Part shown: one piece after another, positions 15,835 through 18,719 of the stretch
Numbering within the stretch: position 1 is the first letter of the stretch
Layout: each line of letters starts with the position of its first letter
NCBI GenBank assembly: GCA_027069135.1
Contig: JALXFE010000588.1
Span: 1-64,000 of the forward strand
Direction: 5' to 3'
Source: Thermoanaerobaculia bacterium
GTDB lineage: Bacteria > Acidobacteriota > Thermoanaerobaculia > Multivoradales > JAHZIX01
Length of the DNA stretch: 64,000 nucleotides
The notes under the pieces: generated by a model
Seen by the model: the letters and a program-made list of their open reading frames with translations, nothing else
Database searches by the model: none
What the model was told of the DNA's origin: nothing
Made by a program: the position numbers and the translations under genes

Positions 15835-17091
15835 ATGGCGTTCTTGAGCCGAGTTTTCCGACGGGATCCCCGGCGGTTACTGCACAAAGCGGAGGGCTGG
15901 TTGCGGGACGGCCAGGGGGTCCGAGCACTCCATGCAGCTGAAAATGTCGTCGAGGGCGCTGAGGGGCGAATCTTGGAGGAGGCGGAAGATCTCGCCCGTC
16001 GGGCTCATGCTGCGATCATGAACCGAGCCCTTCAAGAGGCGAAGCTCTCCAAGGAGGCCGGTGATCTGCGGGAAGCCGCCGATTGGATGGGGACCGCCGC
16101 CGATCATTGCGACGACGAGGCCCAGAGGACGGAGATCGGAAACCTTCGAGCCGCGATGCTCGAGCGGGCGGGACGCGCTGACGAGATAGCTCTTGAAGAA
16201 GATCCGGGGGACGGGGAGGAGCCGCTGGGGGACGAAGAGATCGCCTACGAGATGCTGGCGGGAACCTTTTCGCCGCAGATAGCCGACCTCTACAACCAGC
16301 GCCCGGCGGAGCTCCGCGCGGCGGTAGTGGCTTTTCATGGAGGCAGTCCCACAGAAGCCCTTTCGATCCTCGAGAACCTGCTCGCGGAAGATCCGGACGA
16401 CCCGGTCTTCCGTCTCGAGGCGGGTCAATGCCGGCTCGCGATGGGCCAGATGGAAGCCGCCCAAAGCGATTTCGAAGCCGCGGGAGAAGCCCTCGGCGAT
16501 GATGCTCTCGACGCTGCCGGGAGCCTCTCCATCCCCTTCCTGCTCGCGACCACGCTCTTTGAGGGGGGGAAGTCCAAGGAATTGCTGACCCGATTTGAGG
16601 AAGACATCGATCTCGAAAAAGGCCCAGCAGAGTTGGGAAGACTATGGGCTCGTGCATTGCTCGAGGAGGGCCGTGACGCCGAGGCCCTCGAGGCCATGTT
16701 GATCTTGGGAAATCGATCTCCTGCGGATGCGGAGCTTGCCTTCGAGCTCTCCACGGTTCTCGAAGTCCAGGGCTACGAAGAAGAGGCCATCGCCCGCCTC
16801 GAGAGGGTCGTGGCTCCCGGTTGCTCGACGGGAAGTTGCAATCGGGGGGCCTTGTTTCTGCCGGCGGCGAGGAGGCTCGCCGCCCTCTATCTCAAGGGCG
16901 AAAGGAATCCTCAGCGGGCCGGTGAGGTGCTCGCCTGGGTCCTCGTGGCCTCCGGCGGTCGGTTGTCGGAGGAGGACCTTCCTCTCGTGGAACGGTACCG
17001 AGATCTCCTGGGCGATGAGGATCTGCCGGAGCTTACAAGCTCCCTCGAAGTCTCCGAGAGCCTGTCGGTGATGGGCGGCGCGGGGGAGTGA
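15835..17091 (+). CDS. TPR-like helical repeat protein
   Basis: The 418-residue soluble protein is rich in Ala/Glu/Leu helices. It has recurring TPR-like pairs, such as A-L-S-I-L-E-N-L-L-A-E-D-P-D-D-P-V-F-R-L and A-I-A-R-L-E-R-V-V-A-P, the latter typical of tetratricopeptide scaffolds. A more acidic stretch (about residues 120-140) splits the N-terminal helices from the repeat region. AGGAG precedes the ATG. It overlaps the next gene by one base (TGATG), so the two are probably co-translated. The partner proteins are unknown. Confidence 0.7.
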   Translation: MAFLSRVFRRDPRRLLHKAEGWLRDGQGVRALHAAENVVEGAEGRILEEAEDLARRAHAAIMNRALQEAKLSKEAGDLREAADWMGTAADHCDDEAQRTEIGNLRAAMLERAGRADEIALEEDPGDGEEPLGDEEIAYEMLAGTFSPQIADLYNQRPAELRAAVVAFHGGSPTEALSILENLLAEDPDDPVFRLEAGQCRLAMGQMEAAQSDFEAAGEALGDDALDAAGSLSIPFLLATTLFEGGKSKELLTRFEEDIDLEKGPAELGRLWARALLEEGRDAEALEAMLILGNRSPADAELAFELSTVLEVQGYEEEAIARLERVVAPGCSTGSCNRGALFLPAARRLAALYLKGERNPQRAGEVLAWVLVASGGRLSEEDLPLVERYRDLLGDEDLPELTSSLEVSESLSVMGGAGE

Positions 17092-17690
17092 TGTTGGCCA
17101 AGTCAGTCTGCATCGCGCTGCTGGCCCTATTGGCCACGCCGAGCCTCGCAGGAGCGCGATGCGCCCCGAGGGATGACGACGTGCATGCGCCCTGGCGCCT
17201 TCTTACCTGGGAGGACTTCCGGGCCAGGCTGGACTCGAGAAGGACCGCCGACGCGGCGACGACCAAGACCGGCCTCATCTTGAAACGAGTGACATCGACC
17301 CCCGAGCGCGACGGCGATGAATGGGTGGCGAAGCCGGAGAACGTCTGTGTCTACTCGGTGATGTACAAACTCGAGTCCGGGTACGCCGAGGGGGGGAGGA
17401 ACGGTAAGAATCTTCGCCATGGCCAGTTGCGCTTCGACCTCACGGAAATCTTTGCCCGTCGGCTCTACCGCAGGATCGTCGCCACGCAGCTGCGGGGGCC
17501 GGAACCCCGGGCTTTGAAGGCGCGGCTTGAGGGAGACATCGAAAAGATGTACCAAGAGACGCTCCAGGAGTGGATCGAGGCGATGGAAGCGTTCAACAAG
17601 GAAACCGACTTTGGGCGCAGCAAGAGGGCTGAGAAAAAGTGGGCGCGCCAGGTCGAGGAGTGGTTAGAGGAGGTTCCGCCCGTTCCCTGA
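17091..17690 (+). CDS. Exported DUF922-like protein lacking the HExxH motif
   Basis: The roughly 199-residue product has a signal peptide (L-L-A-L-L-A-T-P-S-L-A-G-A). It then has L-T-W-E-D-F-R-A-R, an A-T-T-K-T-G segment, and R-H-G-Q-L-R-F-D-L-T-E-I-F-A-R-R-L. This pattern resembles the DUF922 putative secreted zinc protease family, whose active segment is usually H-E-Q-x-H-F-D. Here the Glu is Gly and the second His is Arg, so a metalloprotease activity is unlikely. I chose ATG 17091, which overlaps the upstream stop. A GTG at 17088 is possible. The assignment is from remembered family patterns and is moderately sure. Confidence 0.6.
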   Translation: MLAKSVCIALLALLATPSLAGARCAPRDDDVHAPWRLLTWEDFRARLDSRRTADAATTKTGLILKRVTSTPERDGDEWVAKPENVCVYSVMYKLESGYAEGGRNGKNLRHGQLRFDLTEIFARRLYRRIVATQLRGPEPRALKARLEGDIEKMYQETLQEWIEAMEAFNKETDFGRSKRAEKKWARQVEEWLEEVPPVP

Positions 17691-17741: not shown

Positions 17742-18719
17742 CTATTTCTTCAACAGAGCGGTCTCCGGGTGGACCGAAACCCAGTTGTACCAGAAGGTGT
17801 CGAAACCGGCGATCGGCTCAAATCCTGGTGGTAGAGCCTCGTCGGGGCCTGGAAGCAGGCCTGCGGGGTCGGTCTTCTCCGGGTCGATTTTAGCTGGGAT
17901 GAGGTAGGCCCGACTGGACTCGAACATGGATGCCCCCGGTCGGCGAAAGATCAAAAGATGACGCCCACCGAAGATCTTGGAGCGAAGGATCTTTCCTCCG
18001 GCAAAAACCGTGTGGGGAACGGCCACGGGTCGATCGTCGATCAGGAAGGAGAAGATCGAGCCCTTTGGCGGCAGTCGGTCGTCCTTGACTTCCATATTGC
18101 GAAAGGTTTTTTCGTTGGAGAAATAGTTGTCGTAAGGGTTGTTCTCGATGTGTTCCTTACCATCGACGGAAAGCACTCGTGTATCCGGGTATCGTTCCCG
18201 CCATTTCTTCCAGGTCGTTTTCTCGCTCACCGGCAGCTCGACCAGGTCTTTCTTGTCGAGGGTGCCGCCGATAGCCTTGGAGGTCATGATCGACCACCAA
18301 CTATCGGTCTCTCGGTCCCGCATGACGAGGGCAGCGTTCCAAAGAGCGCCGGAGGCTTCAAAGCTCAGTTCTCGGTTTCCAATTTTGCGGTCGTAAACTA
18401 CGGCCGTATTCGCCAGGGGTCACCACACGGCGGCGAAGCTCTTGTCCCCGATTCGATCGTTGACGATCTCATGGCGGTTGAGCAGGTTCAGGCTGTAGGC
18501 GCGGGCCTCGCCGTCGATCACTACGCCTAAGATCCAGGCGTCATCATCCATCTTTGCCGTTTTGGCATCGACGAATTTCGGCTCGAAAACCGCGGGGATA
18601 CCGCCTCGCGGCAATAGCTGTTCGACCCCCGGCGGAAGCTCCTCGCTTGCGGCCCCGAGAAAGGTGGGGAAGGCGGCGAGGAGAGTCGCCGAGAGAATTC
18701 GATTCCAGGGATGGGTCAT
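17742..18719 (-). CDS. DUF3179 family exported protein with in-frame TGA (candidate selenoprotein)
   Basis: The reading frame is continuous for 326 codons apart from one TGA at 18420-18422 (codon 100). Upstream lie a signal peptide (residues 1-24), E-P-K-F-V-D and the DUF3179 motifs L-G-V-V-I-D-G-E-A-R-A-Y-S-L and H-E-I-V-N-D. Directly after the TGA come P-L-A-N-T-A-V-V-Y-D-R and later T-T-W-K-K-W and N-P-Y-D-N-Y. The family normally has C-P-L-C-x-T-A-V-x-x-D-R here, so TGA sits at the first Cys and the second Cys is Ala. A hairpin fitting the bacterial SECIS rules follows. AAAGGAG precedes ATG 18719. The alternative is a pseudogene with one nonsense mutation. No sel genes are in the window. 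The family's biochemical role is unknown. Confidence 0.8.
18388..18406 (-). promoter_or_regulatory. Candidate bacterial SECIS-like hairpin
   Basis: On the minus strand, 13 bases after the TGA, CGG-C-CGUA-GUU-UACG-A-CCG folds into 3 + 4 base pairs with one C-A mismatch and a GUU apical loop. The loop begins 22 bases after the UGA, with G as its first base. As I recall the bacterial SECIS consensus, it asks for a 3-14-base loop with G in the first two positions, 16-37 bases from the UGA. An overlapping palindrome (UACGGCCGUA) could compete. The call is an inference from folding by eye. Confidence 0.5.

Follow-up and report, generated by a model that had tools for sequence, protein, structure and literature searches.

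A probable selenoprotein gene of the DUF3179 family with a U-x-x-A motif in a Thermoanaerobaculia bacterium

Results

A gene of the DUF3179 family on the minus strand of the window (the whole stretch of 64,000 nucleotides analysed here, from contig JALXFE010000588.1 of a Thermoanaerobaculia bacterium) is very probably a selenoprotein gene, in which an in-frame UGA at codon 100 would be decoded as selenocysteine (Sec). This reading, put forward in an earlier note on the same DNA, is supported because UGA recurs at a column otherwise occupied by Cys, the SECIS hairpin behind it covaries, the genome holds a complete set of sel genes and the frame downstream of the UGA is under purifying selection.

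The gene (Table 1) opens with an ATG at 18719-18717 and closes with a TAG at 17744-17742. The frame is open between codon 100 and the TAG and contains no other in-frame UGA, which bears out the earlier description of this TGA as the sole stop in the frame. Read through, the protein matches the PF11376 DUF3179 profile over residues 39-320 (E = 6e-63; 213 bits against a gathering cut-off of 27). The motif around codon 100 is W-U-P-L-A where the family has C-P-L-C, so the second Cys is indeed Ala, as had been noted, and the whole protein carries one Sec and zero Cys. It is probably exported, and its putative signal peptide coincides with low pLDDT in the predicted model. An Rfam scan of the window matched no family, NCBIfam holds no model for the protein and a PDB sequence search with it returned no match. 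Downstream of the gene, 17088-17690 on the plus strand encodes a protein of 200 residues that has an apparent signal peptide and matches no Pfam family; similar-looking proteins are present in a genome of the same genus (L190), where they do not adjoin DUF3179.

Table 1. Features of the DUF3179 gene and its product, in positions of the window
Feature	Position	Strand	Details and basis
DUF3179 gene, probable selenoprotein gene	17742..18719	-	325 residues, stop TAG
Putative signal peptide, residues 1-24 (MTHPWNRILSATLLAAFPTFLGAA)	18648..18719	-	hydrophobic stretch and small-residue end, by inspection
UGA codon 100, read as putative Sec	18422-18420	-	UGA/Cys column in aligned homologues
Ala codon 103, at the second-Cys place of C-x-x-C	18411..18413	-	sequence
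Candidate bacterial SECIS hairpin, CGGcCGUA-GUU-UACGaCCG, loop 18398-18396	18388..18406	-	covariation, synonymous-codon test
First DUF3179 repeat, residues 55-190, with Sec100; Rieske-like predicted fold	18150..18557	-	hhalign, structure models
Second DUF3179 repeat, residues 191-325	17745..18149	-	hhalign of halves

UGA and Cys at one column of the family

The search for DUF3179 covered 59 relatives, a genome collection (36 loci) and, across the phylum, 297 genomes; the combined alignment comprises 138 homologous stretches, some loci entering it twice via two collections. The earlier note had proposed looking among homologues for TGA or Cys at the codon-100 column, and both recur there: UGA in 95 stretches, which come from several phyla, Cys in 42 and Ser in 1. 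Every match in the 297-genome phylum search with at least 47% identity has UGA. The two states also differ in what stands three residues on, since the second Cys is kept in 41 of the 42 Cys rows and absent from 84 of the 95 UGA rows. Of the 95 UGA rows, 73 have the UxxA form.

A quick tree of 115 rows requires at least three changes between the U and C states. The window protein belongs to a clade of 48 rows (SH-aLRT 100) that all have Sec, except for one with Ser, and none of which has Cys at this column; about a quarter of its members carry one to three Cys elsewhere in the protein and most carry none. By depositors' titles, the clade extends over Acidobacteriota, Krumholzibacteriota, Latescibacterota, Calditrichota, KSB1 and Gammaproteobacteria. 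The Ser row (L075) is a Planctomycetota MAG with W-S-P-S-S-N, in which Ser replaces Sec; here Sec was apparently lost without a return to Cys.

Downstream of the UGA, five comparisons over about 220 codons gave dN/dS of 0.19-0.26, the mark of purifying selection. The frame past the UGA has thus been kept. The earlier note had listed missing selABCD genes, a lack of homologues with TGA or Cys at this column and further inactivating changes in close relatives as findings that would speak against a selenoprotein, and the gene withstood all of these tests. One partial DUF3179 match elsewhere (L118; G001:C43:177394-177996) has both a UGA and a UAG in frame and is likely a decaying copy.

A covarying hairpin behind the UGA

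The hairpin of the window gene begins 14 nt past the UGA and its loop 22 nt past it. Bacterial SECIS (bSECIS) rules call for a small apical loop with a G in its first two positions, placed 16-37 nt from the UGA on a stem of at least 4 bp, and this hairpin, with its GUU loop, spacing of 21 and 7 bp including one mismatch, agrees with them. Its MFE of -6.3 kcal/mol falls short of the cut-off of the published bSECIS model (-7.5 kcal/mol or lower), and a z of +0.5 against dinucleotide shuffles places its stability at chance. The earlier proposal of a GUU hairpin, 22 bases from the UGA and obeying the bacterial SECIS rules, therefore holds for loop and spacing and fails on energy. The energy cut-off discriminates poorly here because it is reached by 14 of 28 Cys homologues as well as by 47 of 65 UGA homologues. 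Since the window hairpin taken singly is at chance, the SECIS argument rests on the comparison across homologues.

In the first set of sequences, the hairpin occupies a single register in 59 of the 65 distinct UGA sequences, and positions 22 and 23, counted from the UGA, are invariably G and U. Compensatory changes turn the G-C pair 15-31 into U-A in four sequences and the C-G pair 18-28 into U-A in five; in the latter, the new A falls within a Ser codon (AGC) and the new U is synonymous (Ala GCC to GCU). Over 57 distinct sequences, 30 double-change cells were counted against 7.5 ± 2.2 in shuffled alignments, none of 500 shuffles reaching as many, although these counts come from related sequences and the events are not independent. 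In register, 84% of the cells are paired; when the pairing partner is shifted by one to three columns, this share drops to 23-61%.

Because the hairpin region also encodes the conserved A-V-V-Y-D/G-R, the pairs were compared with those expected under synonymous codon choice: pair 15-31 is formed in 90% of sequences against 29% expected, and pair 18-28 in 100% against 62%. No excess folding is found in the Cys homologues (mean z -0.07, compared with -0.84 in the UGA homologues). A U-x-x-C subfamily (Y-U-T-L-C and similar, L082-L088) lies outside the main register and appears, by eye, to have another hairpin nearer the UGA, CACACC-GGUCU-GGUGUG. Two DUF3179 genes of the U-S-L-C type (L083 and L085; G033:C69, G044:C463) are located about 2.6 to 3.4 kb from a tRNA-Sec gene.

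Selenocysteine genes and a second DUF3179 gene

A search for selA, selB, selC and selD, suggested earlier as a check, found all of them in the genome of the window as one selA-selC-selB-selD cluster on contig C342. The tRNA-Sec has a UCA anticodon and adjoins selA and selB, and the SelD of this cluster is itself Sec-containing (CGUAAK). Among the 59 relatives, 55 have a tRNA-Sec. The genome of the window has two intact tRNA-Sec genes (G000:C342:83033-83127 and G000:C185:5396-5491), against one at most in each of 58 relatives, and two selD genes, each with an in-frame UGA (C342:80030-80953 and C320:8966-9889). The contigs with the extra copies resemble the window in base composition, so that they may stem either from duplication or from a contaminating relative (contamination estimated at 2.4%).

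The second DUF3179 gene of this genome, on contig C182, also bears a UGA (W-U-A-S-E), encodes 242 residues and has a perfect 8-bp form of the window gene's hairpin. Its product is lipoprotein-like. On C182 it is flanked by a UnbV/FG-GAP gene on one side and, on the other, by a TlpA-like gene with W-A-T-W-C-x-x-C (Pfam), an order also read from sequence in L182, L183 and L185. The short DUF3179 proteins of these loci (L010/L011 on G000:C182, L182, L183, L185) combine U-A/P-S-E with a CAHC motif at the C-terminus. Downstream on C182 there is a P-type ATPase gene, a neighbour seen in this one genome only. Among 36 loci, the window DUF3179 gene has no conserved neighbours.

Internal repeats and predicted fold

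The two halves of DUF3179 align with each other by hhalign at 98.6% (E = 8.6e-16), with the same outcome for disjoint sequence sets and less than 1% for reversed and column-shuffled controls. Judged from these profiles, DUF3179 is an internal duplication. The 28 best structural rows for the model of the window protein (pLDDT 94.6) are all Rieske domains (Z 7.4 to 4.0), as are 50 of the 50 best rows for the model of the short paralogue (pLDDT 80.5; Z up to 8.5, 92 residues, 2.8 A). A Foldseek search of the PDB with the window model gave no match at E <= 0.001, and a Rieske sequence profile gave no profile-profile match to the first repeat; the Rieske-like beta fold predicted for the first repeat is therefore a lead and not a membership. 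In this model, Sec100 would stand at the end of a strand and, going by the order of the strands, ahead of the site of Rieske box I; a position exactly at the box I Cys was not supported. A predicted DUF3179 fold match was also obtained for the Indivirus giant-virus protein A0A1V0SD44 in BFVD (E = 3e-8).

Discussion

In the mechanism that we favor, SelB and tRNA-Sec would read UGA100 as Sec in vivo under the direction of the hairpin, and the exported protein would most likely be a redox enzyme of the envelope that works through one selenol residue. Its substrate would oxidise the Se atom of Sec100, and a separate thiol protein of the TlpA or thioredoxin type would reduce it, as the protein has no resolving Cys of its own. 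More generally, DUF3179 selenoproteins may be envelope redox proteins whose Se is reduced by a TlpA-like thiol partner. We consider a redox role of the window protein reasonably likely. Since the window gene stands alone, its thiol partner is an extrapolation from the short paralogue.

Within a selenoprotein, Sec100 could also coordinate a metal or metalloid, or be a binding residue, in place of acting as a redox catalyst. The missing second Cys of a redox pair and the position of the short paralogue upstream of a P-type ATPase gene are consistent with such a role, but C-x-x-C in the Cys homologues and the TlpA-like gene adjoining the short paralogue point to thiol redox chemistry, and the ATPase neighbour is confined to a single genome. 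We therefore regard a ligand role as unlikely, at clearly lower probability than a redox one.

Alternatives to decoding as Sec fare far worse. UGA permits readthrough, and another amino acid might be inserted by Trp suppression or under another code; such insertion is very improbable, given that homologues have Cys at this column, that the hairpin covaries and fits the SECIS rules for loop and spacing, that the genome has a tRNA-Sec with the UCA anticodon along with sel genes, and that no further UGA occurs in the frame. A code change was rejected on the recurrence of UGA, dN/dS and the SECIS covariation. The nonsense mutation that the earlier note kept as its alternative, with the UGA as a true stop and the remainder of the gene decaying, deserves hardly any weight: an in-frame UGA is formally a stop and the window's own hairpin has chance strength, but UGA at the same column in 95 stretches of several phyla, the purifying selection downstream and the covariation of the hairpin refute it.

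Sec decoding of UGA100 thus being by far the preferred reading, the distribution of the residue bears on its chemistry. Because, in the sampled tree, the clade of the window protein fixes Sec and loses the partner Cys, Sec is not just an improved version of one Cys of a C-x-x-C pair, and its use, usually without a Cys partner, in a widespread branch would alter the chemistry that is possible. A fuller picture, which we offer tentatively and hold to be rather doubtful in its entirety, is that of an exported, two-repeat, Rieske-like clade in which an Fe-S cluster was lost or never present and which works via a single Sec and never a Cys. If this picture is true, Acidobacteriota, Krumholzibacteriota, Latescibacterota, Calditrichota, KSB1 and Gammaproteobacteria share a class of selenoenzyme. 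What had been a one-line catalogue entry is now a well-sampled selenoprotein clade. Gene callers that halt at UGA will split such genes in two. Should the fold lead hold, DUF3179, a family with no assigned function, would gain its first structural relative.

The earlier statement that no selenoprotein had been described in this family was wrong: DUF3179 (PF11376) is catalogued as a selenoprotein family with the motif UxxC/T in two reviews (PMC9312934, PMC13188914), the second of which names Zhang and Gladyshev 2007 as the source, with an Olavius algarvensis symbiont. The main text of the deep-Sep paper does not mention DUF3179 by DUF or Pfam number. The UxxA form seems to be absent from the catalogue entries for DUF3179, and a UxxA member may possibly stand in the 2007 alignment. 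Under the rule of the 2026 review that different Sec motifs within one domain family are separate subfamilies (PMC13188914), UxxA would form an unlisted subfamily. We keep it within the known DUF3179 selenoproteins, because UxxT already lacks a second Cys and the 2007 alignment may include UxxA members. The same catalogue includes UxxT and UxxS selenoproteins of other families, namely GPX-like and OsmC-like proteins and arsenate reductase (PMC13188914).

To conclude, the window protein resembles the catalogued DUF3179 selenoproteins in its Pfam family and in the replacement of Cys by Sec, and differs from them in its motif, UxxA (U-P-L-A) in place of UxxC/T, in being free of Cys and in belonging to a clade in which no Cys form was found. 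The motif without a second Cys is a feature that it shares with the UxxT and UxxS selenoproteins. We take the folds of those GPX-like, OsmC-like and arsenate reductase proteins to be unrelated to that of DUF3179. The predicted fold of its first repeat resembles that of Rieske [2Fe-2S] proteins (ferredoxins, NirD, the small subunit of arsenite oxidase), whereas the cluster ligands of these proteins, C-x-H ... C-x-x-H, are absent from the Cys-free window protein, which would carry a single Sec instead.
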